In this document: piece after piece, positions 17,330 through 61,701 of the stretch
Numbering within the stretch: position 1 is the stretch's first letter
How the letters are laid out: the number at the start of each line of letters is the position of its first letter
From: Gavia stellata
Lineage: Eukaryota > Chordata > Aves > Gaviiformes > Gaviidae
NCBI RefSeq assembly: GCF_030936135.1
Contig: NC_082636.1
Coordinates: 62,001 to 126,000, forward strand
Length of the DNA stretch: 64,000 nt
Direction of reading: 5' to 3'
Program-made: the position numbers and the translations under genes
The notes under the pieces: generated by a model
Databases searched by the model: none
What the model was told of the DNA's origin: nothing
Seen by the model: the letters and a program-made list of their open reading frames with translations, nothing else

Positions 17330-20459
<3,130 letters not shown>

Positions 20460-26340: not shown

Positions 26341-26535
26341 GCACCCACGGGTGGACAGATGGACGGAGGGGGAGACCCCAGAGGACCCACCCCACCACCA
26401 CCAGCCCCACCCGCCGCCCCACTGGCGCCAGCCTGGACCCAGAGCCGTCCAGCCCCAGATCTTATCTCTGCCCTGGGGCCAGGGTGCCCCCAGGCCCCGC
26501 CCCCTCCACAGGGACCAGTGGGGCGGCACTGGGAG

Positions 26536-26633: not shown

Positions 26634-26644
26634 GTGAGTCCTGG

Positions 26645-27160
26645 ACACCTGGGTCCCCTGTCCAGCTGTGGGGTCTATGGGGCAGGGTCTATGGGGTGGA
26701 GTGGGGCAGGGTGCGTTCCGGACGCCTGGGTCCTCTTTCCTTTCTGGGGGTCTATGGGGCAGGGTGGGTCCCCGGACACCTGGGTCCCCTGCCCTGCTAT
26801 GGGGTCTATGGGGCAGGGTGGGTCCCTGGACACCTCGGTCCCCTGCTCTGCTATGGGGTCTATGGGGCAGGGTGGGTCCCTGGACGCCTGGGTCCCCTGT
26901 CCTGCTATGGGGTCTATGGGGCAGAGTGGGTCCCCGGACGCCTGGGTCCCCTGTCCTGCTATGGGGTCTATGGGGCAGGGTGGGTCCCCAGACGCCTGGG
27001 TCCCCTGTCCAGCTGTGGGGTCTATGGGGCAGGGTGGGTCCCGAGCGCCGGGGTCCCCTGTCCAGCTGTGGGGTCTATGGGGCAGGGTGGGTCCCCGGAT
27101 GCCTGGGTCCCCTGCCCTGCTATGGGGTCTGTGGGGCAGAGTGGGTCCCGGGCGCCTGGG
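26645..27160. repeat. 54-bp minisatellite in the CREMP 5' UTR intron
   Basis: About nine copies of a 54-bp unit around gggtctatggggcagggtgg. As 54 is a multiple of 3, the array stays open in frame and makes an 18-residue artefactual repeat. Confidence 0.9.
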
Positions 27161-27207
27161 TCCCCCCACCCCCTTTCTCACGGTCCTCTCTCCAACGTGT
27201 GGGGCAG

Positions 27208-30200
27208 ATGGGGCCTCCTCGGACGTTCCTCCTCTGGGTTTGGTTCCTGCTCCAGTGCGGTGAGTCCCATTTGGCCAAAATCCCCCTTTCTCCACCCAAA
27301 TTCCACCTTTTCCATATCCGGCCCCAAATTCCGCATATCCGGCCCCAAATCCACCCACCCTTCCGTTCCACCTCTCCCTTTGCATCTCCAGCCCCAAATT
27401 GGGCGTTTTCAGCCCCAAATCCACGCACCCTTTCACTCCACCTCTCCTTTTTCATCTCCGGCCCCAAATTCGGCATTTCCAGCCCCAAATTCGGCATTTC
27501 TGGCCCCAAATCCACGTGCCCTTCCATTCCACCTCTCCCTTTGCATCTCCAGCCCCAAATTCGGCATTTCCGGCCCCAAATCCACACACCTTTCCATTCC
27601 ACCTCTCCCTTTGCATCTCCAGCCCCAAATTTGGCATTTCCAGCCCCAAATCCATGCGCCCTTCCATTCCACCTCTCTTTTTCCATCTCCAACCCCATAT
27701 TTGGCATTTGCAGCCCCAAATCCACACACATTTTCATTGCACCTCTCCATCTCCAACCCCAAATTCGGCATTTCCGGCCCCAAAGCCACTCACGCTTTCA
27801 TTCCACCTCTCCTCTTCCATCTCCGGCCCCAAATTCGGCATATCCGGCCCCAAATTCGGCATTTCCGGCCCCAAATCCATGCGCCCTTCCATTCCACCTC
27901 TCCTTTTCCATCTCCAACCCCATATTTGGCATTTGCAGCCCCAAATCCACACACATTTTCATTGCACCTCTCCATCTCCAGCCCCAAATTCGGCATTTCC
28001 GGCCCCAAATCCATGCGCCCTTCCATTCCACCTCTCCCTTTGCATCTCCAGCCCCAAATTTGGCATTTGCAGCCCCAAATCCACACACATTTTCATTGCA
28101 CCTCTCCATCTCCAGCCCCAAATTCGGCATTTCTGGCCCCAAATCCACACGCCCTTCCATTCCACCTCTCCTCTTCCACCTCCAACCCCAAATTCGGCTT
28201 TTCCAGCCCCAGAGCCACTCTCGCTTTCATTCCACCTTTCCCTTTCCATCCCCAACCCCAAATTCGGCATTTCCGGCCCCAAAGCCACTCACGCTTTCAT
28301 TCCACCTCTCCTCTTCCATCTCCGGCCCCAAATTCGGCATATCCGGCCCCAAATTCGGCATTTCCGGCCCCAGAGCCACTCACGCTTTCATTCCACCTTT
28401 CCCTTTCCATCCCCAACCCCAAATTTGGCATTTCCAGCCCCAAATTCCCTTTAGAATGGGCAGCAGTGAGTGCTCAATCCCTACGCAAGCCCCTGGAGAG
28501 TCCCCACCCTTAAATCCCCCCATGACTGTAGACCGAAGGGAGGAAAGAGCGAGTTTGAGTGGGAGGAGAACAAAAAACAATGGGGAATTCTGCCTCATTG
28601 GACAACAGAAGAAGCTTCACACACACACACACAGAGACGCAGTGGATTCTCTGCTGTCTGATAAGGGGTTGGGCTGTTGCTCACTGACCTCTGGGTTTTA
28701 TTCCCCAGGTGCCGATCCACCGGCCCAGAGCGGAGCCAAACTCTGCCTTGGGGTGCGATGCGGACCGGGGAGCACGTGCAGAATGTCCGACGCCGGGCCC
28801 AAATGCGTCCCCTTGCCCTCATGCAAAAACTACCAGTGCAAGGAGGGGACGCAGTGCAAGATGGTGGACGGGTGGCCAAAATGTGTCCCACTGCCTTCGT
28901 GCAAGAACGTCCGCTGTGGAGAAGGAACGGAGTGCAAAATGGTGGATGGGTGGCCCAAGTGCGTCCCGTTGCCTTCATGCAAGAACACCCGTTGTGAAGC
29001 CGGAACCCAGTGCAAGATGGTGGACGGGTGGCCCAAGTGTGTCCCACTGCCTTCGTGCAAGAACATCCGTTGTGAAGCCGGAACCCAGTGCAAGATGGTG
29101 GACGGGTGGCCAAAATGTGTCCCACTGCCTTCATGCAGGAACGTCCGTTGTGGAGCTGGAACCCAGTGCAAGATGGTGGACGGGTGGCCCAAATGTGTCC
29201 CGTTGCCTTCGTGCAAGAACATCCGTTGTGAAGCCGGAACGCAGTGCAAGATGGTGGACGGGTGGCCCAAGTGTGTCCCGTTACCATCGTGCAAGAACAT
29301 CCGCTGTGGAGAAGGAACCCAGTGCAAGATGGTGGACGGGTGGCCAAAATGTGTCCCACTGCCTTCGTGCAAGAACGTCCGTTGTGGAGCCGGAACCCAG
29401 TGCAAGATGGTGGACGGGTGGCCCAAATGTGTCCCGTTGCCTTCATGCAAAAACGTCCGTTGTGGAGAAGGAACCCAGTGCAAGATGGTGGACGGGTGGC
29501 CAAAATGTGTCCCACTGCCATCGTGCAAGAACATCCGTTGTGGAGAAGGAACCCAGTGCAAGATGGTGGACGGGTGGCCAAAATGTGTGCCACTGCCTTC
29601 GTGCAAGAACGTCCGTTGTGGAGCCGGAACCCAGTGCAAGATGGTGGACGGGTGGCCCAAATGTGTGCCACTGCCATCGTGCAAGAACGTCCGTTGTGGA
29701 GCCGGAACCCAGTGCAAGATGGTGGACGGGTGGCCCAAGTGTGTCCCGTTACCATCGTGCAAGAACGTCCGTTGTGGAGCCGGAACCCAGTGCAAGATGG
29801 TGGACGGGTGGCCCAAGTGTGTCCCGTTGCCTTCATGCAAGAACGTCCGTTGTGGAGAAGGAACCCAGTGCAAGATGGTGGACGGGTGGCCCAAGTGCGT
29901 CCCATTACCATCATGCAAGAACGTCCGTTGTGGAGCCAGAACCCAGTGCAAGATGGTGGATGGGTGGCCCAAGTGCGTCCCATTACCATCGTGCAAGAAC
30001 ATCCGTTGTGAAGCTGGAACCCAGTGCAAGATGGTGGACGGGTGGCCCAAGTGTGTCCCACTGCCTTCGTGCAAGAACGTCCGCTGTGGAGAAGGAACGG
30101 AGTGCAAAATGGTGGATGGGTGGCCCAAGTGCGTCCCGTTGCCTTCATGCAAGAACACCCGTTGTGAAGCCGGAACCCAGTGCAAGATGGTGGACGGGTG

Positions 30201-33200
30201 GCCCAAGTGTGTCCCACTGCCTTCGTGCAAGAACGTCCGCTGTGGAGCCGGAACACAGTGCAAGATGGTGGACGGGTGGCCAAAATGTGTCCCGTTGCCT
30301 TCGTGCAAGAACGTCCGTTGTGAAGCCGGAACCCAGTGCAAGATGGTGGACGGGTGGCCCAAGTGCGTCCCCATCCCCTCGTGTCACCGATTCCGTTGCG
30401 GCGAGGGCATGCGGTGCAAGATGGTGGCTGGTTGGCCCAAATGCGTCCACCTCCCGCCCTCCTGCCGGCCCATTCGCTGCCCGAAGGGGACCCGTTGCAA
30501 GATGGTGGACGGTTGGCCCAAATGCGTGCGCAAGCAGCTCTTCCAGAGGGAAGCGCCACCGCCTCCGGCTCTTCACGTGTCACCCTCGTGCCACCATCAT
30601 CCCTGTCCCGAAGAGTCCACGTGTAAGGTGGTAGATGGTTGGCCCCGGTGTGTCCCAACCAAGACGTCCCCAAGGCGACCTTCTTGCGGTGACATCCACT
30701 GTCCCAAAGAGACCACGTGCAAGATGACGGACGGGTGGCCCCACTGCGTCCAAACCGGTCCCTCCTGTCACAACATCCAGTGCCAGAAGGGAACCGCGTG
30801 TCGGATGGTTGACGGTTGGCCACGGTGCGTCCCAACCAAGACGTCCTCAAGACAACCTTGCCGGGACGTCCCATGTCCCAAAGGGACCACGTGCGAGATG
30901 GTGGACGACCAACCACGCTGCGTCCCCAAACCCCCCTCCTGCGACGACGTCCAATGCCAGAAGGGAACCGTGTGTCACATGGTTGACGGGTGGCCTTGGT
31001 GTGGGCCAACAAAGACCTCCCACTTGCAACTGGTCCACAAAATCCCGACGTGTGAAGACATCCGTTGCCAAAAGGGGACGGTGTGTAAAATGCTGGACGG
31101 GTGGCCCAAATGCGTGGGTCCCCTGCCCTCCTGCAGTGACATCCAGTGTCCCCAAGGTACCACGTGCAAGATGATCAGCGGTTGGCCCAAATGCATCCAC
31201 AACCCGCCCTCCTGCGGCAACTTTCCGTGTCCGAAGGGGACCGTGTGCCTCATGGCGCACGGTTGGCCCCGCTGTGTGCAGAGAGGGCCGTCCCGCCACC
31301 AACCAGCTTCTCCCGCTCGGGCGGGAACCGGGAAATATTCCGATTCCCATCCCAGCCCGAAACATCTGCCCAGCGCGCAACCGTCCTGCACCAACGTACG
31401 GTGTCAGCAAGGGACCACGTGCAAGATGACGGATGGACAACCACGGTGTGTCCACAACCCGCCCTCCTGCAGTGACATCCAGTGCCAGAAGGGAACCACG
31501 TGTCAGATGGTCGAAGGTTGGCCACGGTGTGTCCAAACCAAGATGTCCATCAGGAAACCTTCTTGTGATGATGTCCACTGTCCCCAAGGGACGACGTGCA
31601 ACTTGATCAACGGCCAACCACGGTGTGTCCACAACCCGCCCTCCTGCCAGGACATCCAGTGCCAGAAGGGAACCATGTGTCAGATGGTCGATGGTTGGCC
31701 ACGGTGTGTCCAAGCCAAGATCTCCCACACACCACCCATCCCAAAAAGACCAACCTGTGAGGACATCCACTGCGCAAAAGGAACCGTGTGCACCACAGTC
31801 GATGGTGGACCCAAGTGCGTGGCCCAACAGCCTTCCTGCAGTGACGTCCAGTGTCCAAAAGGGACCACGTGCACGATGACGGATGGTCAACCACGGTGCG
31901 TCCACAACTCGCCCTCCTGCAGTGACATCCAGTGCCAGAAGGGAACCACGTGTCAGATGGTCGATGGTTGGCCACGGTGTGTCCAAACCAAGATGTCCAT
32001 CAGGAAACCTTCTTGCAATGAGGTCCGCTGTCCCCAACGGACCACGTGCAACTTGATCGACGGCCAACCACGATGTGTCCACAACCCGCCCTCCTGCAGT
32101 GACGTCCAGTGCCAGAAGGGAACCACGTGCCAGATGGTGGATGGTTGGCCACGGTGTGTCCAAGCCAAGATCTCCCACACACCACCCATCCCAAAAAGAC
32201 CAACCTGTGAGGACATCCACTGCGCAAAAGGAACCGTGTGCACCACAGTCGATGGTGGACCCAAGTGCGTGGCCCAACAGCCTTCCTGCAGTGACGTCCA
32301 GTGTCCAAAAGGGACCACGTGCAGGATGACGGATGGACAACCACGGTGTGTCCACAACCCGCCCTCCTGCAGTGACATCCAGTGCCAGAAGGGAACCACG
32401 TGTCAGATGGTCGATGGTTGGCCACGGTGTGTCCAAACCAAGATGTCCATCAGGAAACCTTCTTGTGATGATGTCCACTGTCCCCAAGGGACGACGTGCA
32501 ACTTGATCAACAGCCAACCACGGTGTGTCCACAACCCGCCCTCCTGCCAGGACATCCAGTGCCAAAAGGGAACCACGTGTCAGATGGTCGATGGTTGGCC
32601 ACGGTGCATCCAAACCAAGATGTCCATCAGAAAACCTTCTTGCAACGAGGTCCACTGTCCCCAAGGGACAACGTGCAACTTGATCAACGGCCAACCACGG
32701 TGTGTCCACAACCCGCCCTCCTGCAGGATGACGGATGGACAACCACGGTGTGTCCTCAACCCGCCCTCCTGCAGTGACATCCAGTGCCAGAAGGGAACCA
32801 CGTGTCAGATGGTCGATGGTTGGCCACGGTGTGTCCAAACCAAGACATCCTCAAGACCACCGTCTTGTCATGACATCCAGTGTCCCCAAGGGACCACGTG
32901 CAAGATGACAGACGATTGGCCCCACTGTGTCCACAACGCACCCTCCTGCAGTGACATCCAGTGCCAGAAGGGAACCACGTGTCAGATGGTGGATGGTTGG
33001 CCACGGTGTGTCCAAGCCAAGATCTCCCACACACCACCCATCCCAAAAAGACCAACCTGTGAGGACATCCACTGCGCAAAAGGAACCGTGTGCACCACAG
33101 TCGATGGTGGACCCAAGTGCGTGGCCCAACAGCCTTCCTGCAGTGACGTCCAGTGTCCAAAAGGGACCACATGCACGATGATGGATGGACAACCACGGTG

Positions 33201-36200
33201 TGTCCACAACCCGCCCTCCTGCAGTGACATCCAGTGCCAGAAGGGAACCACGTGTCAGATGGTCGATGGTTGGCCACGGTGTGTCCAAACCAAGATGTCC
33301 ATCAGGAAACCTTCTTGTGATGATGTCCACTGTCCCCAAGGGACGACGTGCAACTTGATCGACGGCCAACCACGGTGTGTCCACAACCCGCCCTCCTGCC
33401 AGGACATCCAGTGCCAGAAGGGAACCACGTGCCAGATGGTTGATGGTTGGCCACGGTGTGTCCAAACCAAGACATCCTCAAGACCACCGTCCTGTCATGA
33501 CATCCAGTGTCCCCAAGGGACCACGTGCAAGATGACGGATGATTGGCCCCACTGTGTCCACAACGCACCATCCTGCAGTGACATCCAGTGCCAGAAGGGA
33601 ACCACGTGTCAGATGGTGGATGGTTGGCCACGGTGTGTCCAAGCCAAGATCTCCCACATGCCACCCACCCCGAAAAGACCAACCTGTGAGGACATCCACT
33701 GCGCAAAAGGAACCGTGTGCACCACAGTCGATGGTGGACCCAAGTGCGTGGCCCAACAGCCTTCCTGCAGTGACGTCCAGTGTCCAAAAGGGACCACGTG
33801 CACGATGACGGATGGTCAACCACAGTGTGTCCACAATCTACCCTCCTGCCAGGACATCCAGTGCCAGAAGGGAACCACGTGCCAGATGGTCGATGGTTGG
33901 CCACGGTGTGTCCAAACCAAGATGTCCATCAGGAAACCTTCTTGCAACGAGGTCCGCTGTCCCCAAGGGACCACGTGCAACTTGATCGACGGCCAACCAC
34001 GGTGTGTCCACAACCCGCCCTCCTGCAGTGACGTCCAGTGCCAGAAGGGAACCACGTGTCAGATGGTCGAAGGTTGGCCACGGTGTGTCCAAACCAAGAT
34101 GTCCATCAGGAAACCTTCTTGTGATGATGTCCACTGTCCCCAAGGGACCACGTGCAACTTGATCGACGGCCAACCACGGTGTGTCCACAACCCGCCCTCC
34201 TGCCAGGACATCCAGTGCCAGAAGGGAACCACGTGTCAGATGGTCGAAGGTTGGCCACGGTGTGTCCAAACCAAGATGTCCATCAGGAAACCTTCTTGCA
34301 ACGAGGTCCGCTGTCCCCAAGGGACCACGTGCAACTTGAGCGACGGCCAACCACGGTGTGTCCACAACCCGCCCTCCTGCCAGGACATCCAGTGCCAGAA
34401 GGGAACCACGTGTCAGATGGTCGAAGGTTGGCCACGGTGTGTCCAAACCAAGATGTCCATCAGGAAACCTTCTTGTGATGATGTCCACTGTCCCCAAGGG
34501 ACCACATGCAACTTGATCGACGGCCAACCACGGTGTGTCCACAACCCGCCCTCCTGCAGTGACATCCAGTGCCAGAAGGGAACCACGTGTCAGATGGTCA
34601 ATGGTTGGCCACAGTGTGTCCAAACCAAGACATCCTCAAGACCACCGTCTTGTCACGACATCCAGTGTCCCCAAGGGACCACGTGCAGGATGACAGATAA
34701 TTGGCCCCACTGTGTCCACAGCGCACCCTCCTGCAGTGACATCCAGTGCCAGAAGGGAACCACGTGCCAGATGGTCGATGGTTGGCCACGGTGTGTCCAA
34801 GCCAAGACCACCCTGAGGCAACCATCTTGCAGCGATGTCTACTGTCCCCAAGGGACCATGTGCAACATGGTCAATGGGTGGCCCCAGTGTGTCCAAAATC
34901 GTCCCTCCTGCAGTGACATCCAATGCCAGAAGGGAATCACGTGCCAGATGGTCGATGGTTGGCCACGGTGTGTCCAAACCAAGCTGTCCCCAAGGAGACC
35001 TTCTTGCAGGAACATCCAGTGTCCCAAAGGGACCACGTGCAAGATGACAGACGGTTGGCCCCGATGTGTCCAAAATCCACCCTCCTGCAGTGACATCCAA
35101 TGCCAGAAGGGAACCACGTGCCAGATGGTCGATGGTTGGCCACAGTGCACCCAAACCAAGACCGTACTGAGGCAACCTTCTTGCAGGGACGTCCAATGTC
35201 CCAAAAGGACCACGTGTAAGATGCTGAAGGGGTGGCCTCAATGTGTCCACCACCAGCCCTCCTGCAGTGTCGTCCACTGTCCCGAAGGGACCACGTGTAA
35301 GATGACAGGTGGTTGGCCCCGATGTGTTCATATTCAACCTTCCTGCGAAGATGTCCAGTGCCAGAAGGGAACCACGTGCCAGATGGTCGATGGTTGGCCA
35401 CGGTGTGTCCAAACAAAGACATCCCTCAGGAGACCTTCTTGTAGCAACATCCACTGTCCCAAAGGGACCATGTGCAAGGTGACCAATGGGTGGCCTCAGT
35501 GTGTCCACAACCCGCCCTCCTGCCATGAGGTCCAGTGCCAGAAGGGAACCACGTGTCAGATGGTTGATGGTTGGCCACGGTGTGTCCAAGCCAAGACCAC
35601 CTTGAGGCAACCATCTTGCAGCGATGTCCGCTGTCCCCAAGGGACGACGTGTAGTTTGATCGATGGCCAACCACAGTGTGTCCCCAACCCGCCCTCCTGC
35701 AGCGACATCCAGTGTGAGAAAGGAACCACGTGTCAGATGGTCGATGGTTGGCCACGGTGCATCCAAACTAAGACCTTGCCAAGGCGACCTTCCTGCAGTG
35801 ACGTCCACTGTCCCAAAGCAACCACATGCAAAATGCTGCAGGGTTGGCCACAGTGTGTCCACAACCAACCCTCCTGTAACGACGTCCAATGCCAGAAGGG
35901 AACCACGTGTCAGATGGTTGATGGTTGGCCACGGTGTGTCCAAATCAAGACTTCCATTCGGAGACCTTCTTGCCGGGACGTCCAATGTCCCCAAGGGACC
36001 ACGTGCAAGATGACAGACGGTTGGCCCCGATGTGTCCACAATCGTCCCTCCTGCAGTGACACCCAGTGCCAGAAGGGAACCACGTGCCAGATGGTTGATG
36101 GTTGGCCACGGTGTGTCCAAATCAAGACCTCCATTAGGAGACCTACTTGCAGTGATGTCCACTGTCCCAAAGGGACCACGTGCAAGATGCTACAGGGGTG

Positions 36201-39200
36201 GCCCCAGTGTGTCCACAGCCATCCCTCCTGTAATGACGTCCAATGCCAGAAGGGAACCACGTGTCAGATGGTGGATGGTTGGCCACGGTGCGTCCAAACC
36301 AAGACCGTTCTGAGGCAACCGTCTTGTGGTGACATCCACTGTCCCAAAGGGACCACGTGCAAGATGCTGCAGGGGTGGCCTCAATGTGTCCACAGCCATC
36401 CCTCCTGCAGTGACATCCAGTGCCAGAAGGGAACCACGTGTCAAATGGTCGATGGTTGGCCACGGTGCGTCCAAACCAAGACCGTTCTGAGGCAACCATC
36501 TTGCAGTGACATCCACTGTCCCAAAGGGACCACGTGCAAGATGCTGCAGGGGTGGCCCCAGTGTGTCCACAGCCAACCCTCCTGTAATGACATCCACATC
36601 CACTGCCAGAAGGGAACCACGTGTCAGATGGTTGATGGTTGGCCACAGTGCATCCAAATCAAGACCTCCATTAGGAGACCTAGTTGCAGTGACGTCCACT
36701 GTCCCAAGGGGACCACGTGCAAGATGCTACAGGGGTGGCCCCAGTGTGTTCACATCCAACCCTCCTGCAGCGATGTCCACTGTCCCCAAGGGACCATGTG
36801 CAACATGGTCAACGGGTGGCCCCAGTGTGTCCAAAATCGTCCCTCCTGCAGTGACATCCACTGCCAGAAGGGAACCACGTGTCAGATGGTCGATGGTTGG
36901 CCACGGTGTGTCCAAACCAAGTTGTCCATCAGGAAACCTTCTTGCGATGATGTCCACTGTCCCCAAGGGACCACGTGCAACTTGATCGACGGACAACCAC
37001 GGTGTGTCCACAACCCGCCCTCCTGCAGTGACATCCAGTGCCAGAAACAAACCATGTGCCAGATGGTCGATGGTTGGCCACGGTGCGTCCAAACTAAGAC
37101 CTTGCCAAGGAGACCTTCCTGCCGTGACATCCACTGTCCCAAAGCAACCACGTGCAAGATGCTGCAGGGCTGGCCACAGTGTGTCCACACCCCACCCTCC
37201 TGCCAGGACATCCAGTGCCAGAAGGGAACCACGTGCCAGATGGTTGATGGTTGGCCACGGTGTGTCCAAAACAAGATGACCCCAACGAGACCTTCTTGCA
37301 TGAATGTCCAATGTCCCCAAGGGACCACGTGCAAGATGAGAGACGGTTGGCCCCAATGTGTCCAAAATCGTCCCTCCTGCAGTGACACCCAGTGCCAGAA
37401 GGGAACCACGTGCCAGATGGTTGATGGTTGGCCACGGTGTGTCCAAATCAAGACCTCCATTAGGAGACCTTCTTGCAGTGATATCCACTGTTCCAAGGGG
37501 ACCACGTGCAAGATGACCGATGGTTGGCCTCAGTGTGTCCACAACCCACCCTCCTGCCAGGACACCCAATGCCAGAAGGGAACCACGTGCCGGATGGTTG
37601 ATGGTTGGCCACAGTGCGTCCAAACCAAGACCGTTCTGAGGCAACCATCCTGCAACGATGTTCACTGTCCCCAAGGGACCACGTGCAACATGGTCAATGG
37701 GTGGCCCCAGTGTGTTCACAACCCACCCTCCTGCAGTGACCTCCAGTGCCAGAAGGGAACCACGTGCCAGATGGTTGATGGTTGGCCACGGTGTGTCCAA
37801 ATCAAGACCTCCATTAGGAGACCTTCTTGCAGTGATATCCACTGTTCCAAGGGGACCACGTGCAAGATGACCGATGGTTGGCCTCAGTGTGTCCATAACC
37901 CGCCCTCCTGCCAGGACACCCAATGCCAGAAGGGAACTACGTGCCGGATGGTTGATGGTTGGCCACGGTGTGTCCAAACCAAGACCGTTCTGAGGCAGCC
38001 ATCCTGCAACGATGTTCACTGTCCCCAAGGGACCACGTGTAATATGGTCAATGGGTGGCCCCAGTGTGTTCACAACCCACCCTCCTGCAGTGACCTCCAA
38101 TGCCAGAAGGGAACCATGTGCCAAATGGTTGATGGTTGGCCACGGTGTGTCCAAACCAAGACGTCCATTAGGACACCTTCTTGCAGTGATGTCCGCTGTC
38201 CCAAAGGGACCACCTGCAAGATGCTGCAGGGTTGGCCTCAGTGTGTCCACAGCCAACCCTCCTGTAACGACGTCCAATGCCAGAAGGGAACCACGTGTCA
38301 GATGGTTGATGGTTGGCCACGGTGTGTGCAAAACAAGATGACCCCAACGAGACCTTCTTGCCGGGACGTCCAATGTCCCCAAGGGACCACGTGCAAGATG
38401 ACAGACGGTTGGCCCCGATGTGTCCAAAATCGTCCCTCCTGCAGTGACATCCAGTGCCAGAAGGGAACCACGTGCCAGATGGTTGATGGTTGGCCACGGT
38501 GTGTCCAAACCAAGACCTCCATTAGGAGACCTACTTGCAGAGACGTCCGATGTTCCAAGGGGACCACATGCAAAATGCTACAGGGTTGGCCTCAGTGTGT
38601 CCACAGCCAACCCTCCTGTAACGACGTCCAATGCCAGAAGGGAACCACGTGCCAGTTGGTCAATGGTTGGCCACAGTGTGTCCAAACCAAGACGTTCATC
38701 AGGAAACCTTCTTGTAATGATGTCCACTGTCCCCAAGGAACCACGTGCAACTTGATCGATGGCCAACCACGGTGTGTCCACAACCCGCCCTCCTGCAGTG
38801 ACATCCAATGCCAGAAGGGAACCACGTGCCAGATCGTCGATGGTTGGCCACGGTGTCTACAAACCAAGACCGTTCTGAGGCAACCGTCTTGCAGTGACGT
38901 CCACTGTCCCCAAGGGACCACGTGCAAGATGACAGACGGTTGGCCCCAATGTGTCCAAAATCGTCCCTCCTGCAGTGACATCCAGTGCCAGAAGGGAACC
39001 ACGTGTCAGATGGTGGATGGTTGGCCACGGTGTGTCCAAACCAAGACCTCCATTAGGAGACCTTCCTGCAGTGACGTCCACTGTCCCAAAGGGACCACGT
39101 GCAAGATGCTGCAGGGGTGGCCCCAGTGTGTCCACAGCCAACCCTCCTGTAACGATGTCCACTGTCCCCAAGGGACCACGTGCAACATGGTCAATGGGTG

Positions 39201-51200: not shown

Positions 51201-54200
51201 CCCAGGGACCCAGGCGTCCGGGTGGGACCAGCCCCATAGAGCACCCAGGGACCCAGGCGTCTGGGTGGGACCAGCCCCACGGAGCACCCAGGGACCCAGG
51301 CGTCCGGGTGGGACCAGCCCCATAGAGCACCCAGGGACCCAGGCGTCCGGGTGGGACCAGCCCCATAGAGCACCCAGGCACTCAGGCGTCTGGGTGGGAC
51401 CAGCCCCATAGAGCACCCAGGGACCCAGGCGTCCGGGTGGGACCAGCCCCATAGAGCACCCAGGGACCCAGGCGTCAGGGTGGGACCAGCCCCATAGAGC
51501 ACCCAAGGACCCAGGCGTCCGGGTGGGACCAGCCCCACAGAGCACCCAGGCGTCAGGGTGGGACCAGCCCCATAGAGCACCCAGGGACCCAGGCGTCCGG
51601 GTGGGACCAGCCCCACACAGCACCCAGGGACCCAGGCGTCCGGGTGGGACCAGCCCCATAGAGCACCCAGGGACCCAGGCGTCCCGGTGGGACCAGCCCC
51701 ACGGAGCACCCAGGGACCCAGGCGTCTGGGTGGGACCAGCCCCATGGAGCACCCAAGGACCCAGGCGTCCGGGTGGGACCAGCCCCACAGAGCACCCAGG
51801 GACCCAGGCGTCTGGGTGGGACCAGCCCCATAGAGCACCCAGGCACCCAGGCGTCAGGGTGGGACCAGCCCCATAGAGCACCCAGGCACCCAGGCGTCCG
51901 GGTGGGACCAGCCCCACACAGCACCCAGGGACCCAGGTGTCCGGGTGGGACCAGCCCCATAGAGCACCCAGGGACCCAGGCGTCCGGGTGGGACCAGCCC
52001 CATAGAGCACCCAGGGACCCAGGCGTCCGGGTGGGACCAGCCCCATAGAGCACCCAGGGACCCAGGCGTCCGGGTGGGACCAGCCCCACAGAGCACCCAG
52101 GGACCCAGGTGTCCGGGTGGGACCAGCCCCACACAGCACCCAGGGACCCAGGCGTCCGGGTGGGACCAGCCCCATAGAGCACCCAGGGACCCAGGCGTCC
52201 GGGTGGGACCAGCCCCACAGAGCACCCAGGGACCCAGGCGTCCGGGTGGGACCAGCCCCATAGAGCACCCAGGCACCCAGGCGTCTGGGTGGGACCAGCC
52301 CCATAGAGCACCCAAGGACCCAGGCGTCCGGGTGGGGCCAGCCCCATAGAGCACCCAGGAAGGACCTGGGCACCCTGAAGAGCACCCAGGCACCCTGGAG
52401 GGCACCCAGGCAGGACCCCACCCCCAATATCTTTCTCCCCCCCCCCCCAGCACCCAACTGCCCAGCGGGCACCCGCTACGCCACCTGCACCCCTAGCTGC
52501 ACCCAAGGGTGCCGGGAGGGCTGCGTCTCCCCCCCCGGTGCCGGGGGCACCCAGGGGTGCTCGGCGGCGTGGGAGAGGGCGTGGGGTGCCGGCGGCACCC
52601 CGGGGACCTGCCGGGCGGTGGGGACCCGGCACTACAGGACCTTCGACGGAGCGGCGGTGGCGGCGGGTGGGGACAACTGCTCCTACGTGGTGACGCGGAG
52701 CTGCGGCGGCGGTGGCGTCCAACCCGCCTTCGCCGTCACCGTCACCGAGGCACCCCGGGGTGGCCCCGAGAGGCGGAAGGTGACCGTCAGCGTGGAGCAG
52801 CGGAGTTGGGTGCTGCGGGGAGGGCGCCCCGGTGTGGTGGAGGTGAGGGGGTTGGGGGGAGGAAGGGGGCGATGGGTGGAGAAGGATGGGATGGAGAAGG
52901 ATGGGATGGGGTGGAGAAGGATGGGGTGGAGAAGGATGGGATGGGGTGGAGAAGGATGGGATGGGGTGGAGAAGGATGGGGTGGAGAAGGATGGGGTGGA
53001 GAAGGATGGGGTGGAGAAGGATGGGATGGGGTGGAGAAGGATGGGGTGGAGAAGGATGGGGTGGAGAGGATGGGATGGAGAAGGATGGGATGGGGTGGAG
53101 AAGGATGGGATGGAGAAGGATGGGATGGGGTGGAGAAGGATGGGGTGGAGAAGGATGGGGTGGAGAGGATGGGATGGAGAAGGATGGGATGGAGAAGGAT
53201 GGGATGGGGTGGAGAAGGATGGGGTGGAGAAGGATGGGATGGAGAAGGATGGGATGGGGTGGAGAAGGATGGGGTGGAGAAGGATGGGATGGGGTGGAGA
53301 AGGATGGGGTGGAGAAGGATGGGGTGGAGAGGATGGGATGGAGAAGGATGGGATGGGGTGGAGAAGGATGGGATGGAGAAGGATGGGATGGGGTGGAGAA
53401 GGATGGGGTGGAGAAGGATGGGGTGGAGAGGATGGGATGGAGAAGGATGGGATGGAGAAGGATGGGATGGGGTGGAGAAGGATGGGGTGGAGAAGGATGG
53501 GATGGAGAAGGATGGGATGGGGTGGAGAAGGATGGGGTGGAGAAGGATGGGATGGGGTGGAGAAGGATGGGGTGGAGAAGGATGGGGTGGAGAGGATGGG
53601 ATGGAGAAGGATGGGATGGAGAAGGATGGGATGGGGTGGAGAAGGATGGGATGGGGTGGAGAAGGATGGGGTGGAGAGGATGGGATGGAGAAGGATGGGA
53701 TGGAGAAGGATGGGATGGGGTGGAGAAGGATGGGATGGGATGGAGAAGGATGGGGTGGGGTGGAGAAGGATGGGGTGGAGAAGGATGGGGTGGAGAAGGA
53801 TGGGATGGAGAAGGAAGGGGTGGAGAGGATGGGATGGAGAAGGATGGGATGGGGTGGAGAAGGATGGGGTGGAGAAGGATGGGATGGAGAAGGATGGGAT
53901 GGAGAAGGATGGGATGGAGAAGGATGGGATGGAGAAGGATGGGATGGGTGGAGAAGGATGGGATGGAGAAGGATGGGATGGAGAAGGATGGGATGGGTGG
54001 AGAAGGAAGGGATGGGGTGGAGAAGGAAGGGATGGGGTGGAGAAGGAAGGGATGGGATGGGATGGAGAAGGATGGGGTGGGGTGGAGAAGGATGGGGTGG
54101 AGAAGGAAGGGATGGGGTGAAGGATGGGGTGGGGTGAAGGATGGGGTGGGGTGGAGAAGGATGGGGTGGGGTGGAGAAGGATGGGATGGAGAAGGATGGG

Positions 54201-57200
54201 ATGGAGAAGGATGGGGTGGGATGGAGAAGGATGGGATGGAGAAGGATGGGGTGGAGAAGGATGGGGTGGAGAAGGATGGGGTGGAGAAGGATGGGGTGGA
54301 GAAGGATGGGGTGGGATGGAGAAGGATGGGATGGGGTGGAGAAGGATGGGATGGGGTGGAGAAGGATGGGATGGGGTGGAGAAGGATGGGGTGGAGAAGG
54401 ATGGGGTGGGGTGGAGAAGGATGGGGTGGAGAAGGATGGGATGGAGAAGGATGGGGTGGAGAAGGATGGGGTGGAGAAGGATGGGGTGGAGAAGGATGGG
54501 GTGGAGAAGGATGGGGTGGAGAAGGATGGGGTGGGATGGAGAAGGATGGGATGGGGTGGAGAAGGATGGGGTGGAGAAGGATGGGGTGGGGTGGAGAAGG
54601 ATGGGGTGGAGAAGGATGGGATGGAGAAGGATGGGATGGAGAAGGATGGGATGGGTGGAGAAGGATGGGATGGGTGGAGAAGGATGGGGTGGAGAAGGAT
54701 GGGGTGGAGAAGGATGGGATGGGGCGGAGAAGGAAGGGATGGGGCGGAGAAGGAAGGGATGGGGCGGAGAAGGATGGGGTGGAGAAGGATGGGATGGGAT
54801 GGAGAAGGATGGGGTGGAGAAGGATGGGATGGGATGGAGAAGGATGGGGTGGAGAAGGATGGGATGGGGTGGAGAAGGATGGGATGGGGTGGAGAAGGAT
54901 GGGATGGGATGGAGAAGGATGGGATGGAGAAGGATGGGATGGGGTGGAGAAGGATGGGATGGGATGGAGAAGGATGGGATGGGGTGGAGAAGGATGGGAT
55001 GGGGTGGAGAAGGATGGGATGGGGTGGAGAAGGATGGGATGGGGTGGAGAAGGATGGGATGGGGTGGAGAAGGATGGGGTGGAGAAGGATGGGGTGGGAT
55101 GGAGAAGGATGGGATGGGGTGGAGAAGGATGGGGTGGAGAAGGATGGGGTGGGGTGGAGAAGGATGGGGTGGAGAAGGATGGGATGGAGAAGGATGGGAT
55201 GGGTGGAGAAGGATGGGATGGGTGGAGAAGGATGGGATGGGTGGAGAAGGATGGGATGGGGCGGAGAAGGAAGGGATGGGGCGGAGAAGGAAGGGATGGG
55301 GCGGAGAAGGAAGGGATGGAGAAGGATGGGATGGGGTGGAGAAGGATGGGATGGGATGGAGAAGGATGGGATGGAGAAGGATGGGATGGGGTGGAGAAGG
55401 ATGGGATGGGATGGAGAAGGATGGGATGGGATGGAGAAGGATGGGATGGGGTGGAGAAGGATGGGATGGGGTGGAGAAGGATGGGATGGGGTGGAGAAGG
55501 ATGGGATGGGGTGGAGAAGGATGGGGTGGAGAAGGATGGGGTGGAGAAGGATGGGGTGGGGTGGAGAAGGATGGGGTGGAGAAGGATGGGATGGAGAAGG
55601 ATGGGATGGAGAAGGATGGGGTGGGGTGGAGAAGGATGGGATGGGGTGGAGAGGGATGGGATGGGGTGGAGAGGGATGGGAGGGAGAAGGATGGGATGGG
55701 GTGGAGAGGGATGGGAGGGAGAAGGATGGGATGGGGTGGAGAGGGATGGGATGGGGTGGAGAGGGATGGGATGGAGAAGGATGGGATGGGGTGGAGAGGG
55801 ATGGGATGGAGAAGGATGGGATGGGGTGGAGAAGGATGGGATGGAGAAGGATGGGGTGGGGTGGAGAAGGATGGGATGGGGTGGAGAGGGATGGGAGGGA
55901 GAAGGATGGGATGGGGTGGAGAAGGATGGGATGGAGAAGGATGGGATGGGGTGGAGAGGGATGGGATGGGGTGGAGAGGGATGGGATGGAGAAGGATGGG
56001 ATGGGGTGGAGAAGGATGGGGTGGGGTGGAGAAGGATGGGGTGGGGTGGAGAAGGATGGGGTGGGGTGGAGAAGGATGGGGTGGAGAAGGATGGGATGGG
56101 GTGGAGAAGGATGGGGTGGAGAAGGATGGGGTGGAGAAGGATGGGGTGGAGAAGGATGGGGTGGAGAAGGATGGGGTGGAGAAGGATGGGGTGGGGTGGA
56201 GAAGGATGGGGTGGGTGGAGAAGGATGGGATGGGATGGAGAAGGATGGGATGGGGTGGAGAAGGATGGGATGGGGTGGAGAAGGATGGGATGGGATGGAG
56301 AAGGAAGGGGTGGGATGGAGAAGGAAGGGGTGGAGAGGATGGGATGGAGAAGGATGGGATGGGGTGGAGAAGGATGGGGTGGAGAAGGATGGGGTGGAGA
56401 AGGATGGGATGGAGAAGGATGGGATGGAGAAGGATGGGATGGAGAAGGATGGGATGGAGAAGAATGGGATGGGATGGAGAAGGATGGGATGGAGAAGGAT
56501 GGGATGGAGAAGGATGGGATGGAGAAGGATGGGATGGAGAAGGATGGGATGGGTGGAGAAGGAAGGGATGGGGTGGAGAAGGAAGGGATGGGGTGGAGAA
56601 GGAAGGGATGGGGTGGGGTGGAGAAGGATGGGGTGGAGAAGGAAGGGATGGGGTGAAGGATGGGGTGGGGTGAAGGATGGGGTGGGGTGAAGGATGGTGT
56701 GGGGTGGAGAAGGATGGGGTGGAGAAGGAAGGGATGGGGTGGAGAAGGAAGGGGGGATGGAGAAGGAAGGGGGGATGGATGGATGGAGGGGACGGAGAAG
56801 GACGGATGAGATGGAGAAAGATGGATGGAGAAGGACGGATGAGATGGAGAAGGACGGATGAGATGGATGGAGAAGGACGAGATGGGGAAGGACGGATGAG
56901 ATGGAGGATGGATGGAGAAGGAGGGATGGAGAAGGATGGACAGACGAGATGGGGAAGGACGGACAGAGGACAGATAGAGAAGATGGATGGAGAAGGACGG
57001 AGGGGATGGAGAAGGACGAGATGGAGAAGGACGGAGAAGGATGGGATGGAGGAGGACGAATGAGATGGAGGAGGACGAATGAGATGGAGGATGGACGGAG
57101 AAGGACGGATGAGATGGGGAAGGACGGATGAGATGGGGAAGGATGGATGGAGAAGGATGGGGGAGATGGAGAAGATGGATGGGTGGGTAGATGGGGAAGG

Positions 57201-60200
57201 ACGGATGAGATGGGGAAGGACGGATGAGATGGGGAAGGACGGATGGAGAAGGATGGGGGAGATGGAGAAGATGGATGGGTGGATAGATGGAGAAGGATGG
57301 AGGGGATGGAGAAGGACGGATGAGATGGAGAACGATGAGATGGAGAAAGATGGATGAGATGGAGAAAGATGGATGGAGAAGGACGGGATGGAGAAGGACG
57401 GATGAGATGGATGGAGAAGGACAAGATGGGGAAGGACGGATGGAGAAGGATGGACGAGATGGAGGATGGATGGAGAAGGATGGACAAGATGGAGGATGGA
57501 TGGATGAGATGGACAAGGACAGATGAGACGGAGGACATACGAGACGGGGAAGGATGGATGGAGAAGGATGGATGGAGGATGGATGGAGAAGAATGGATGA
57601 GACGGAGAAGGATGGATGGAGAAGGACGGATGAGACGGAGAAGGATGGATGGAGAAGGACGGATGAGACGGAGAAGGATGGATGGAGAAGACGACTGGCT
57701 GGATGAATGGGAAGGATGGATGGATGAAGGATGTAGGATGGAGATGGATGGAGATGGATGGAGATGGATGGACAGACAGAAGGATGGAAGGATGGACAGA
57801 TGGCTGGAGAAGGTCGGAAGGATGGAGGGATGGAGAAGGTTGGACGGATGAATGGATGGATGGAGAAGGTTGGAAGGACAGATGGCTGGAGAAGGTCGGA
57901 AGGATGGAGAAGGTTGGATGGCTGGATGGACGGACGGATGGCTGGAGGACAAACGGACTGCTGGCCAGAAGGAACCGGGTGGAGGACCAGGCGGAGCAGC
58001 CAACCAGGTCCCCCCGCTCACCCCACCCCACCCCACGCAGGTGGACGGCGCCGAGGTGCCGCTGCCCTTCTGCCCGCGGGGCGGGGCCGCCTGCGTGACA
58101 CCCCAAGGTGCCACCACCCTCCTCCTCCTCCTCGACTCGGGCCTCCGCGTGGCCGTCGGCCCCGGGGCCGCGGTGGCCGTCACCGTCTCCCCCCGTTACC
58201 GCAACGTCACCTGCGGCCTCTGCGGCAACTTCGACGGCCACCCCTATAACGACCACCTCCACAAGGCCACCGCCGGCACCACGTGTCATCGGCCCTGCCC
58301 CGGACCCGCGTGTCCCCCTTGTCACCAGCCCCCCAAGAGGGCCTTCGTCCACACCAAGCTCTGTGGTCTCCTCCGAGCCCCCCGAGGTCCCTTTGGGGAC
58401 TGTCACACCGTGGTCCATCCCGGAATCTTCTTCGACATCTGCCTCTGGGAGCTCTGCGAGGCCCCCGGGGACAAAGAGGTCCTCAAGGAGGTCCTGGGTG
58501 CCTACGAGGCCGCCTGCCACCAGGCCGGGGCTCGGGTGGGACCCTGGAGCACCCCCAACGTCTGCCGTGAGTTGGGGACCAGGGGGTGGGAGGTGGATGT
58601 GGGGCCGTGGGGCCTCTGGAGGGGCTGTGTCCATCCCTGATGTTCTCCAGCTCTCTGTCCATGACATCCCTACATGTCCATGGTGACCTCTGTGTCCATC
58701 CCTGATGTTCTCCACCTGTCCATCCGTGACGTCCCTACGTGTCCATGGTGACCTGTGTCCATCCCTGACGTTCTCCAGCTCTCTGTCCCTCCATGACATC
58801 CCTACGTGTCCATGGTGACCTCTCTGTGTCCATCCCTGATGTTCTCCAGCTCTCTGTCCATCCATGACATCCCTACATGTCCATGGTGACCTCTCTGCGT
58901 CCATCCCTGATGTTCTCCAGCTCTCTGTCCATCCATGACATCCCTACATGTCCATGGTGACCTCTCTGCGTCCATCCCTGATGTTCTCCAGCTCTCTGTC
59001 CATCCCTGACGTCCCTACGTGTCCATGGGGACCTCTCTGTGTCCATCCCTGATGTTCTCCAGCTCTCTGTCCATCCCTGACATCCCTACGTGTCCATGGT
59101 GACCTCTCTGTGTCCATCCCTGATGTTCTCCAGCTCTCTGTCCATCCCTGACGTCTCTACATGTCCATGGTGACCTCTCTGTGTCCATCCCTGATGTTCT
59201 CCAGCTCTCTGTCCATCCCTGACGTCCCTACGTGTCCATGGGGACCTCTCTGTGTCCATCCCTGATGTTCTCCAGCTCTCTGTCCATCCATGACATCCCT
59301 ACGTGTCCACGATGACCTCTCTGTGTCCATCCCTGATGTCCTCCAGCTCTCTGTCCCTCCATGACATCCCTACGTGTCCATGGTGACCTCTCTGTCCATC
59401 CCTGATGTTCTCCAGCTCTCTGTCCATCCATGACATCCCTACGTGTCCACGATGACCTCTCTGTGTCCATCCCTGATGTCCTCCAGCTCTCTGTCCATCC
59501 CTGACGTCCCTACGTGTCCATGGTGACCTGTGTCCATCCCTGATGTTCTCCAGCTCTCTGTCCATCCCTGACATCCCTACATGTCCATGGTGACCTGTGT
59601 CCATCCCTGATGTTCTCCAGCTCTCTGTCCATCCCTGACATCCCTACGTGTCCATGGTGACCTCTCTGTGTCCATCCCTGATGTTCTCCAGCTCTCTCTC
59701 CATCCCTGACTTCTCTACCCGTCCCCTCCATGATGTCCCCCGTGGTCTGTCCCTCCCCGACCTGTCACGTGTCCCCACGTCCCCACCCAATCCCTCTATC
59801 ACCTACAGCCCCGTGGTGCCCCGAGGACTCTCGCTGCCGCCCCGGTGACAACTGTGTCCCCCACCGAACGCTGCTGCCACGGGACCTGCTTGGAGGTGAG
59901 GGGACACCATGGGGACGAGGGATGGGGGGACCTCCAGGTGAGGGGACACGGGATGGGGGGACCTCCAGGTGAAGGAACGCAACGGGGATGGGGAGACGGG
60001 GACGGGGAGACGGGGACGGAGGAAGCGTGACTAGAGGAGGAATGGAAGGTAGAGGGGATGGGTGGACGGCCGAGGAGATGAAGAAGCCACTGGAGAAGGA
60101 CAGCTGGGTGGTTGGGTGGATGGAACCCCAGAAGAAGGATGAACGGACGGATGGACAACTGAAGGAGCTTCTTCAACGGCTTCTCCATCCATCCGTTCCT

Positions 60201-61598
60201 GGAAATATGGCTGGAAAAGCACTGAGGATGATGGATGGATGAAGAAACTATTGAAGACGGATAGCTGAAGAAACCATCGAAGATGGACGGATAGATGGAG
60301 AGATGATGGATGGAGAAACCATGTAGATGGACAGATGGATGGAGAAACCAAGGTGGAGGGATGGATGGAAAAACGAATGGAGAAACCATGAAGATGGACA
60401 GATGAATGAAGAAATGGATGGAGAAACCACTGAAGATGGATGGATGGAGAAACCATCAAAGATGGATGGATGGAGAAACCATGAAGATGGACAGATGGAA
60501 GATGGATGGAGAAACCATGAAGATGGACGGAAAGATGGATGGAGAAACCATGAAGATGGACGGAAAGATGGATGGAGAAACCATGAAGACGGACGGATGG
60601 AAAGATGGATGGAGAAACCATAAAGATGGACGGAAAGATGGATGGAGAAACCATCGAAGATGGACAGATGGAAGATGGATGGAGAAACCATGAAGATGGA
60701 CGGAAAGATGGATGGAGAAACCATCAAAGATGGATGGATGGAGAAACCATCGAAGATGGATAGACAGAAAGATGGATGGAGAAACCATGAAGATGGACGG
60801 AAAGATGGATGGAGAAACCATGAAGATGGACGGATGGAAAGATGGATGGAGAAACCATCAAAGATGGATGGATGGAGAAACCATCGAAGATGGATAGACG
60901 GAAAGATGGATGGAGAAACCATGAAGATGGACGGATGGATGGAGAGATGGGAGAAGCCATGAAGATGGATGGAGAAGCCATGACGATGGATGGATGGATG
61001 GAAAAATGGATAGAGAAACCACTGAAGATAGATGGAGAAACCATCAAAGATGGATGGATGGATGGAGAGATGGATGGAAAAACCCTGGAGATGGATGGAC
61101 GGACAAACCATTGAAGATGGATGGATGGAGAGATGGATGGAGAAACTATAAAGATGGATGGATGGAGAGATGGATGGAAAAACCACTGAAGATGGAGTGA
61201 TGGAAAAACCAAAGATGGACGGATGGATGGAGGAATAGATGGAGAAACCATCAAAGATGGATGGACGGAGAGACGGATGGAGAAATCACGAAGATGGATG
61301 GATGGATGGAAACAGAAATGAAGATACGGATAAAGAAACGGGATAACGGATGGAGAGAAGGGATGGGGAGATGGATGGAGGGATGGGGAGATGGATGGAG
61401 GGATGGGGAGATGGATGGAGGGATGGAGGGACGGAGAAGACACCCTGACCCCATCTCCCCCCCCCAGGCCAGCTGCTGGGAGCGCTGCCGCTGCGAGGCC
61501 TCGGCCAGACCCTGGTGGCCCCGGGGGACGCCGTGGGCCAGATCCTGGGGTGGCCCCTGGGCCTCCGACCCCTCCAGGGTGTCCCCTTGGTCCCATAG
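27208..61598 (+). CDS. CREMP: Cysteine-rich eggshell membrane protein (CREMP) with VWD/C8 tail
   Basis: This would be a secreted, disulfide-rich structural protein of the eggshell membrane. Coding exons are 27208-27259, 28709-40995, 41118-41343, 44165-44487, 45330-45843, 52451-52842, 58041-58566, 59809-59895 and 61468-61598. Phases are 1, 0, 1, 0, 1, 0, 1, 1, all introns are GT-AG, and the sum is 14,538 nt (4,845 residues plus TAG). Residues 1-18 ([18 protein letters not shown]) are a signal peptide. About 30-4030 hold about 135 four-cysteine modules. VWD1 is about 4035-4188. VWD2 with C8 is about 4227-4467. A short TIL-like segment and VWD3 with C8 occupy about 4470-4773, followed by a tail of about 70 residues. 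Module spacing C-X4-C-X5-C-X8-C with linkers of 5, 6 or 11 residues matches the a and b modules published for chicken CREMP, as I recall that work. Each module also resembles a FOLN domain. Identity rests on spacing and pattern. The VWD tail could also earn the name zonadhesin/FCGBP-like. Confidence 0.85.
27290..28440. repeat. 70-bp minisatellite in CREMP intron 2
   Basis: About 16 copies of a unit near 70 bp sharing ccattccacctctcc and ccccaaattcggcatttcc. It fills the intron between the signal-peptide exon and the giant exon. The plus-strand frame leading into the giant exon happens to be open here. Confidence 0.92.
28816..30375 (+). repeat. CREMP: Coding array 1: 20 exact 78-bp units, 5-residue linker
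   Basis: Twenty consecutive 26-residue modules ([20 protein letters not shown] then PKCVPL) occupy exactly 1,560 bp with no indel. Spacing is C-X4-C-X5-C-X8-C-X5. Variation sits mainly at positions such as V/I/T after KN and GA/GE/EA before GTQ. One degenerate module (KLCLGVRC...) precedes the array. The uniformity indicates recent homogenisation. Confidence 0.95.
30376..31434 (+). repeat. CREMP: Transition modules of CREMP
   Basis: About ten divergent modules with variable linkers. Two linkers are rich in Pro, Ser and charged residues and lack cysteine, at about 30526-30585 and 31282-31380. They separate the 78-bp array from the alternating a-b array. Confidence 0.85.
31435..39650 (+). repeat. 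CREMP: Coding array 2: alternating a and b modules, 177-bp period
   Basis: An a module with a 6-residue linker (27 residues, e.g. CVHNPPSC) alternates with a b module with an 11-residue linker (32 residues, e.g. [13 protein letters not shown]). This gives a 59-residue, 177-bp dimer over about 46 dimers. Super-repeats are visible: a block with [14 protein letters not shown] recurs near 31.75, 32.20, 33.05 and 33.68 kb, and blocks with [10 protein letters not shown] dominate after 35.8 kb. The reading frame is never lost. Confidence 0.93.
39651..40758 (+). repeat. CREMP: C-terminal divergent CREMP modules
   Basis: A Ser/Pro-rich linker (39651-39770) is followed by about 12 modules that differ clearly from each other (for example [36 protein letters not shown]). 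They probably escaped array homogenisation and may be nearest to the ancestral unit. Confidence 0.85.
40759..41343 (+). other. CREMP: VWD1 of CREMP (no C8)
   Basis: Begins [18 protein letters not shown] at the end of the giant exon and continues in exon 41118-41343 to [12 protein letters not shown]. The halves meet at a phase-0 intron of 122 bp. The family signature CGLCGN is weakened to CGVCGQ, and the domain ends at a phase-1 intron with no C8 domain behind it. Confidence 0.85.
41360..44060. repeat. Polypurine minisatellite with 325-bp higher-order repeat
   Basis: Purine-rich gggatggagggatgg words. A block starting near 41481 recurs at about 41806, 42131, 42386 and 42711, so the main higher-order period is 325 bp with one shortened copy (255 bp). 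From 43380 a simpler gagaaacgggaagagggatg array follows. It fills the intron between VWD1 and VWD2. Confidence 0.92.
44165..45843 (+). other. CREMP: VWD2 and C8 of CREMP
   Basis: Exon 44165-44487 starts with a short Pro/Val spacer (repeated PVPVPN), then [16 protein letters not shown] of VWD2. Exon 45330-45843 continues VNGVPTRLP to [12 protein letters not shown]. It runs without an intron into a C8 domain ([20 protein letters not shown] ... FC). There is no GDPH autocleavage motif. Confidence 0.88.
44500..45240. repeat. GTGAGTAA-type minisatellite in a CREMP intron
   Basis: Many imperfect copies of gagtgagtaacgagtgagta words. Each carries GTGAGT, the consensus 5' splice-site sequence, directly downstream of the true donor ACG|GTGAGTAG. 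Confidence 0.85.
45850..52400. repeat. 43-bp minisatellite of 6.5 kb in a CREMP intron
   Basis: About 150 copies of a 43-bp unit containing cacccagggacccaggcgtc and gggtgggaccagcccca. A variant unit with aaggacctgggcaccctgaa recurs near 46.0, 48.15, 49.53, 50.63, 50.96 and 52.36 kb, which shows kilobase-scale internal duplication. All long ORFs on either strand here are artefacts. Confidence 0.95.
52451..58566 (+). other. CREMP: VWD3 and C8 of CREMP
   Basis: Exon 52451-52842 opens with a reduced TIL-like segment ([18 protein letters not shown]), then [10 protein letters not shown] of VWD3. Exon 58041-58566 continues [10 protein letters not shown] to the good signature CGLCGNFDG and a C8 domain ([15 protein letters not shown] ... 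NVC). Both NCS (52677) and NVT (58203) are glycosylation sequons. Confidence 0.88.
52860..57990. repeat. 5-kb polypurine minisatellite in a CREMP intron
   Basis: Runs of ggagaaggatgggatggggt and shorter variants from 52870 to 56770 are almost pure purine on the plus strand. They grade into gatggagaaggacggatgaga and gatggatgg units to 57990. The very large minus-strand ORFs, up to 2,073 codons of Pro/Ser/His, are artefacts of this array. Confidence 0.95.
58640..59740. repeat. ~71-bp minisatellite in a CREMP intron
   Basis: About 15 copies of a 71-bp unit with gatgttctccagctctctgt and ccctacgtgtccatggtgac. Confidence 0.92.
60230..61440. repeat. GATGGATGGAGAAACCAT array in the last CREMP intron
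   Basis: Units of about 25-35 bp around gatggatggagaaaccatga, grading to gatggagggatgggga before the last exon. Confidence 0.9.
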
Positions 61599-61695: not shown

Positions 61696-61701
61696 AATAA
61701 A
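61696..61701 (+). terminator. CREMP poly(A) signal AATAAA
   Basis: AATAAA 98 bases after the CREMP stop codon, implying a short 3' UTR. Confidence 0.85.

Follow-up and report, generated by a model that had tools for sequence, protein, structure and literature searches.

Organization of the locus

The stretch of DNA analysed here (the window) covers 64,000 nucleotides of the genome of the loon Gavia stellata, namely positions 62001-126000 of contig C43, which is 142,769 bases long. On its forward strand, from 27208 to 61598, it carries a nine-exon gene predicted to encode a cysteine-rich eggshell membrane protein (CREMP). The alpha-A globin of this genome is bird-like: in the PDB its six top rows are double-alpha constructs, and the best-matching single chains, 1faw, 3eok and 1a4f, are haemoglobins of goose and duck. 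We rebuilt the exons from the sequence, the splice borders and the domain content, and arrived at the codon count and the end points of the initial annotation. All introns are of the GT-AG type, the successive exon borders have phases 1, 0, 1, 0, 1, 0, 1 and 1, and the reading frame is kept throughout. The spliced coding sequence of 14,538 nt comprises 4,845 codons followed by a TAG at 61596-61598. The predicted protein of about 527 kDa consists of a signal peptide, a long array of cysteine modules and a tail with the order VWD, VWD-C8, VWD-C8. Its 4,845 residues include 597 cysteines (12.3%), a content that falls with that of CREMP at about 12-14%, and 8.7% glycine; the eggshell membrane itself has been reported to contain 10.1% cysteine and 9.5% glycine (PMC3068167).

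Exon 1 (27208-27259) is predicted to contain the ATG and the signal peptide and ends with the phase-1 donor GCG/GTGAGT, the slash marking the exon border. The ATG at 27208, immediately preceded by an AG, was the one candidate within 25,400-28,700 to pass a filter that combined a hydrophobic core with a phase-1 donor, in agreement with the signal-peptide exon proposed initially. The promoter of the initial annotation can be matched, with low confidence, to a TATA-like TACAAAA at 26583-26589; after it comes an equally tentative untranslated exon ending with GAAG/GTGAGT at 26633/26634.

Exon 2 (28709-40995; 12,287 bp) is one open frame holding the entire module array, followed by the first half of VWD1 (40762-40995), which Pfam VWD recognizes in the array's own exon and frame and which ends at a phase-0 donor. 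Left unspliced, this frame continues into the intron up to a stop at 41202. Introns within the array were considered, notably where modules 31 and 123 have long linkers, and rejected: exon 2 contains neither a GTRAGT nor an acceptor-like site by our own definition of these. The shorter GTRAG occurs 10 times in it, whereas 200 codon shuffles averaged 22.9 and never had fewer than 13. Since one uninterrupted exon of 12.3 kb spans the array as well as this half of VWD1, their fusion needs no splice prediction.

The remainder of the tail is spread over five exons. Exon 3 (41118-41343), identified by Pfam and intron homology, provides the second half of VWD1, with no C8 after it. Exon 4 (44165-44487), delimited by Pfam and splice borders, opens with C/PPLC and continues with a PVPVPN linker and the first half of VWD2, whose second half is found together with a C8 in exon 5 (45330-45843; Pfam, intron homology). 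A short cysteine-rich stretch starting with C/PPNC and the first half of VWD3 make up exon 6 (52451-52842; Pfam, splice borders), and exon 7 (58041-58566; Pfam, intron homology) supplies the second half of VWD3 and its C8. The frame of exon 8 (59809-59895) was accepted because exons 4, 6 and 8 each begin with C/PPxC in phase 1. Exon 9 (61468-61598) would encode a cysteine-free C-terminus and the TAG; it is the weakest of the nine, called from its phase, its stop and the AATAAA poly(A) signal at 61696-61701, which was already part of the initial annotation. An alternative, frame 1, was discarded for exon 9, as it reads through beyond the poly(A) signal.

No assembly gap falls inside the gene, the window's sole run of N (200 N, 25104-25303) being upstream. 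The longest exact repeat within exon 2 is 188 bp, so that long reads, if such were used, should resolve the array rather than let it collapse in assembly. The gene length given here is that of one assembly. The initial annotation held that this gene would settle the size and the architecture of the protein. The model was indeed reproduced, but the word is too strong for a size and an architecture predicted from the gene sequence.

The module array

Exon 2 contains 135 strict C-X4-C-X5-C-X8-C modules between 28744 and 40737. The last module having no follower, these give 134 module-to-module distances: 61 of 27 residues (X6 linker), 39 of 32 (X11), 23 of 26 (X5), 5 of 37 and 6 others. The spacing and the 6- and 11-residue linkers described in the initial annotation were thus recovered, and so was its 59-residue a-b dimer, which predominates from about 34 to 39.5 kb of the window. 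Modules 1-21 (28744-30381) are of 26 residues each, with an X5 linker that mostly reads VPLPS. Modules 22-123 (30382-39774) comprise a modules (27 residues), b modules (32) and modules of 37 residues, arranged as aabaB units of 150 residues and then largely in a-b alternation. Both of these segments match the solved CREMP structure PDB 9PGB. Modules 124-135 (39775-40737), set apart by spacing and pN/pS, are mostly of 27 residues and have diverged.

Two irregular units lie between strict modules with the frame intact. One is truncated to two cysteines (32641-32769, near 32722), and the other has X6 in place of X4 (CNDIHIHC; 36502-36684, near 36583). Both are additional to the 135 strict modules, and the array as a whole has about 136 modules.

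The differences between modules fall mainly at third codon positions. In the coding frame, pN/pS among modules was 0.17 for the 26-residue type (n=21), 0.43 for the 27-residue type (n=62, including the last module), 0.38 for the 32-residue type (n=39) and 0.51 for the last nine modules. Four of the other frames gave 0.87-1.88, and the fifth, an antisense frame mirroring the codon positions, gave 0.36-0.66. Read in its coding frame, the array shows purifying selection. One may wonder whether it could instead be a minisatellite that is open by chance, as about 72% of the 120,769 assembled bases of C43 are masked as tandem repeat or N and other repeats of the window also yield long ORFs. Such an origin has a negligible probability: pN/pS is well under 1 in no frame but that of CREMP and the one mirroring it, and the identity to 9PGB reaches 74%. 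We rejected a chance ORF or minisatellite on these two grounds.

A search of the genome (1.32 Gb, 1,185 contigs) with a module query gave 78 scored candidates and at least 68 matches, all at the CREMP locus of C43; the a/b module query also reached the 26-residue modules of the array.

Identity of the gene as CREMP

The entry 9PGB, entitled '4-module Cysteine Rich Eggshell Membrane Protein' and listed without a source species, was matched by modules 101-104 with a phmmer E-value of 2.9e-58 and by the first four modules, of the 26-residue type, with 3.6e-31. Its chain 9pgb_A showed a best ungapped identity of 88/119, and across four modules the likeness goes up to 74% (36 a-b-a-b windows, 46-74%, mean 68%).

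In chicken CREMP, P7 and P26 are found only in a modules, P7 'always', and K25 only in b modules, while D3, K8, G9, G17 and P19 are conserved (PMC3068167). Among modules 22-122 of the loon array, P26 is present in 52/52 a and 0/38 b modules, P7 in 43/52 a and 1/38 b, and K25 in 38/38 b modules. P19 occurs in all a and b modules, D3 in 44/52 a and 36/38 b, G9 in 47/52 a and 36/38 b, and G17 in 47/52 a and 38/38 b; K8 is kept in 36/38 b and merely 25/52 a modules, Q8 taking its place in 26/52 a. When all 32-residue modules are considered, 38/39 have K25, module 126 having T at this position.

The loon array is like chicken CREMP and 9PGB in its spacing, its a and b types, its 59-residue dimer and the placing of P26 in a modules and of K25 in b modules. 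It differs from the chicken sequences in that Q8 is about as frequent as K8 in a modules and P7 is present in 43, not all, of the 52 a modules. It also differs outside modules 22-122, where K25 appears in 6/9 of the last nine 27-residue modules and the array opens with 21 modules of the 26-residue type, having N3 in 20/21 and no P7. The arrangements described for the chicken fragments, namely runs of a and a-b alternation, are found inside one loon exon; the a-b-b order, also reported for chicken (PMC3068167), was not seen in the loon array.

Altogether, the match to 9PGB and the mostly kept a/b marker residues support the identification of this gene as a CREMP gene, and the agreement with published chicken CREMP asserted in the initial annotation extends to most of the markers given in PMC3068167. 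The annotation was also right that assembly had hampered earlier work: the abstract of that 2011 report leaves open how many CREMP proteins there are and how long they are, for that very reason. The chicken sequences presented in its accessible text are fragments that show no signal peptide, no VWD and no C8, whereas the loon gene model has all three.

The VWD/C8 tail and its relatives

Pfam recognizes three VWD stretches (2.2e-64) and two C8 domains (3.9e-35) in the C-terminal 810 residues; VWD2 and VWD3 are each accompanied by a C8 and VWD1 is not. The best PDB match of the tail is FCGBP, with 1.2e-195 as a sum over nine stretches, and exon 7 alone gave FCGBP again (1.8e-108 over six stretches). 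At E 1, Pfam gave no TIL match for the tail, where only the short C/PPxC stretches are seen, and the autocleavage motif GDPH is absent from all 4,845 residues. Pfam detected no IgGFc-binding domain in the tail or in the 90 residues that follow exon 1; between those ends the scan took in two samples of the module stretch. In a tree of 13 VWD sequences, the CREMP VWDs had no resolved placement.

We compared this tail with related loci on contigs C578, C11 and C26. Those of C578 are FCGBP-like genes, as indicated by the one exon tested (match to FCGBP of 6.7e-252 over six stretches). A phase-0 intron interrupts the VWD at one and the same point, before V/I-N/D-x, in 3/3 CREMP VWDs and in 7/7 VWDs examined on these contigs from 31 paralogue matches, the VWD1 of CREMP reading VAG at this point. 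A phase-1 donor follows the last C8 cysteine in 2/2 CREMP C8s and 13/13 paralogue C8s, a set in which five from C11 represent two sequences in tandem copies and from which the motif left out the C8s of C26. The shared positions and phases provide independent support for exons 2-7. The description of the gene as full length is hence well supported by homologous introns from exon 2 through exon 7; exons 1, 8 and 9 are predicted from ORF and splice logic alone.

These comparisons bear on whether two genes have been misjoined, that is, a CREMP gene ending in or just after exon 2 and a downstream FCGBP-like gene. The exon joins are predicted from DNA alone across introns of up to 6.6 kb that are filled with minisatellites, and Du 2015 has separate isthmus entries for CREMP and for an FCGBP-like gene (PMC4608100). 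We nevertheless find a misjoin improbable. A single open frame runs from the array through the first half of VWD1, the exon for the second half begins 122 bp downstream of exon 2 at a homologous phase-0 acceptor, and the later exons maintain the phase; moreover, what was listed as a distinct FCGBP-like transcript could represent the 3' portion of this one mRNA.

The cysteine spacing of the modules is also found in the related genes. The paralogue loci L023-L030 (C578, C11, C26) contain 17 matches to the spacing pattern, 14 of them distinct, and all 17 are exactly X4-X5-X8 although the pattern permitted X7-9 in the last gap. A VWD starts at once after 15 of these units, one is cut by the end of its locus and one stands at an exon end. 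Over the entire C578 there are 10 such units, nine followed by a VWD start and one at an exon end, and outside the array none occurs on the assembled 120,769 bases of C43. Conversely, a VWD-start motif detected 14 VWDs in the paralogue loci, 10 with an exact-spacing unit before them. In the four others, one unit has lost a cysteine, one is spaced otherwise, and two identical copies have none. Two exons of C578 consist of one module and half a VWD, entered in phase 1 and left in phase 0. They have the plan of CREMP exon 2, but a single module where that exon has about 136.

CREMP resembles FCGBP and related VWD proteins in its VWD-C8 units, in the introns within the VWD and after the C8, in the four-cysteine unit just 5' of most VWDs and in the lone-module exon. 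It differs from them in having about 136 modules and not one or two, in the lack of GDPH, in a VWD1 without C8, in the absence of a detected TIL and, in the pieces scanned, of an IgGFc-binding domain.

Some further features of the related loci were noted. The FCGBP-like genes at C578:14,000-75,400, a contig of 94 kb, lie on both strands. One of them appears to have two successive four-cysteine modules across an intron, an arrangement that could possibly represent a first step toward the CREMP array. On C11 (16,379,982-16,443,072; L016-L020, L022, L027, L028), near-identical units of a VWD locus recur mostly every 8.4 kb, with an in-frame TGA in two of its matches.

Origin of the modules

We propose that CREMP is likely an FCGBP-type gene in which the pre-VWD half-E module, the C-terminal half of TILa, has been amplified inside one exon. 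This kinship and this module origin are a new reading, drawn from the tail and absent from the initial annotation. The Pfam TILa profile matches the modules with its second half alone (profile positions 26 or 33 to 54) and exceeds its cut-off in 2/3 module samples. Using a profile built from 98 distinct modules against the ORFs of the paralogue loci, we found the paralogue half-E weakly: the best match, 8e-4, is the unit before GDPHYNTFD, in two identical tandem copies. The third and fourth matches (0.017 and 0.024) appear fortuitous. The two lone modules gave 1.5 and 2.0, which is not significant, and a control with shuffled columns reached 0.26 at best.

Another hypothesis is that the gene is CREMP with its own tail but that the modules are FOLN units, of the follistatin/osteonectin type, inserted before a VWD gene. 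FOLN also passes the Pfam cut-off in 2/3 module samples and scores there slightly above TILa (33.5 and 41.6 bits versus 31.5 and 30.1); in the third, C-terminal sample TILa leads with 25.6 bits versus 15.8, both under the cut-off. The FOLN of follistatin and osteonectin, like the slime-mould protein SP75, has four cysteines with nearly equal spacing. PDB follistatin and its relatives match the modules with just 0.009-0.06, and for SP75 the comparison consisted of one weak Pfam match to a Dictyostelium spore-coat family (0.49). FOLN was absent at E 1 from four paralogue stretches searched with Pfam, which would make the modules slightly more FOLN-like than the half-E units are. On the other hand, the modules adjoin a VWD, share an exon with it and have intron phases equal to those of the FCGBP-like lone-module exons, and 10/10 spacing matches of C578 are inside VWD genes. 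In addition, FOLN and half-E may be related to each other. We thus regard the insertion of FOLN units as rather unlikely. The half-E origin is nonetheless held merely likely, because FOLN scores slightly higher in two samples and the module profile misses the lone modules.

Proposed action and significance

How such a protein could work may be pictured by combining the gene model with published biology. The chain would enter the secretory pathway of the isthmus glands by means of a classical signal peptide. Each module would then close two disulfides, giving a long beaded rod, and lysine 25 in the b-module linkers could offer evenly spaced sites for cross-linking between rods by LOXL2, a lysyl oxidase. 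The VWD/C8 tail, without GDPH cleavage sites, may serve in packing or in end-wise association before cross-linking. Disulfide-dependent folding, lysine-derived cross-links and LOXL2 in the membrane have all been described (PMC3068167, PMC4608100, PMC6811977, PMC7881572, PMC10057008). QSOX1 oxidises a recombinant CREMP fragment and is a possible oxidase (PMC3068167). Unconventional secretion was once suggested for CREMP, whose 5' end was then uncertain (PMC4608100). To this the gene model adds a predicted classical signal peptide, a regular K25 and a VWD/C8 end.

In the chicken isthmus, CREMP is upregulated 58-70 fold and an FCGBP-like gene 7.6-34 fold (PMC4608100). The two top entries of a membrane powder are LOXL2 (28%) and CREMPs (27%), as given among PMC6811977, PMC7881572 and PMC10057008. 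The same powder includes a protein 'similar to IgGFc-binding protein-like of wild turkey', an entry that would fit the CREMP tail.

Taken jointly, a complete bird CREMP gene, its derivation by half-E amplification in an FCGBP-type gene and the fibre action proposed here seem to us quite probable. We are more reserved, and lean slightly against it, about a broader proposal as a whole, in which an FCGBP-like exon with one module grew to about 136, the 'CREMP1-6' entries and the isthmus 'FCGBP-like' transcript reported for chicken are parts of one giant mRNA, and secretion is classical. If true, the fibres of the eggshell membrane would be a re-invented mucus protein.

No full-length CREMP gene appears in the portions sampled of the eggshell literature (PMC3068167, PMC4608100, PMC11117225, PMC13074765, PMC7881572, PMC10057008, PMC6811977), and we found no literature joining CREMP with 'von Willebrand'. 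Chicken CREMP has been entered as LOC107049904 (PMC13074765); since this locus is already named CREMP, it may carry a full-length annotation. With a gene model free of gaps, the number and length of CREMPs become testable, and a protein once given an unconventional route acquires a predicted signal peptide. The chief protein of the fibres in bird eggs would further be tied to the mucus proteins of the VWD/FCGBP family, and the structure of the gene would suggest how a cross-linked biomaterial could evolve from one exon.

Surroundings of the gene

Upstream of the gene, exons of trypsin-family serine proteases are found on the minus strand at 1426-1737, 17655-18047, 18140-18604 and 18758-19057 of the window, and further ones on C43 from 23,170. 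Pfam Trypsin was detected in 7/8 upstream ORFs submitted, all seven on the minus strand. Within the gene, introns 5 and 6 (45862-52359 and 52871-57758) are almost wholly minisatellite, made up of a 43-bp unit in 154 copies and of 15-35 bp GATGGAGAAG units with a GC skew near 1.0.
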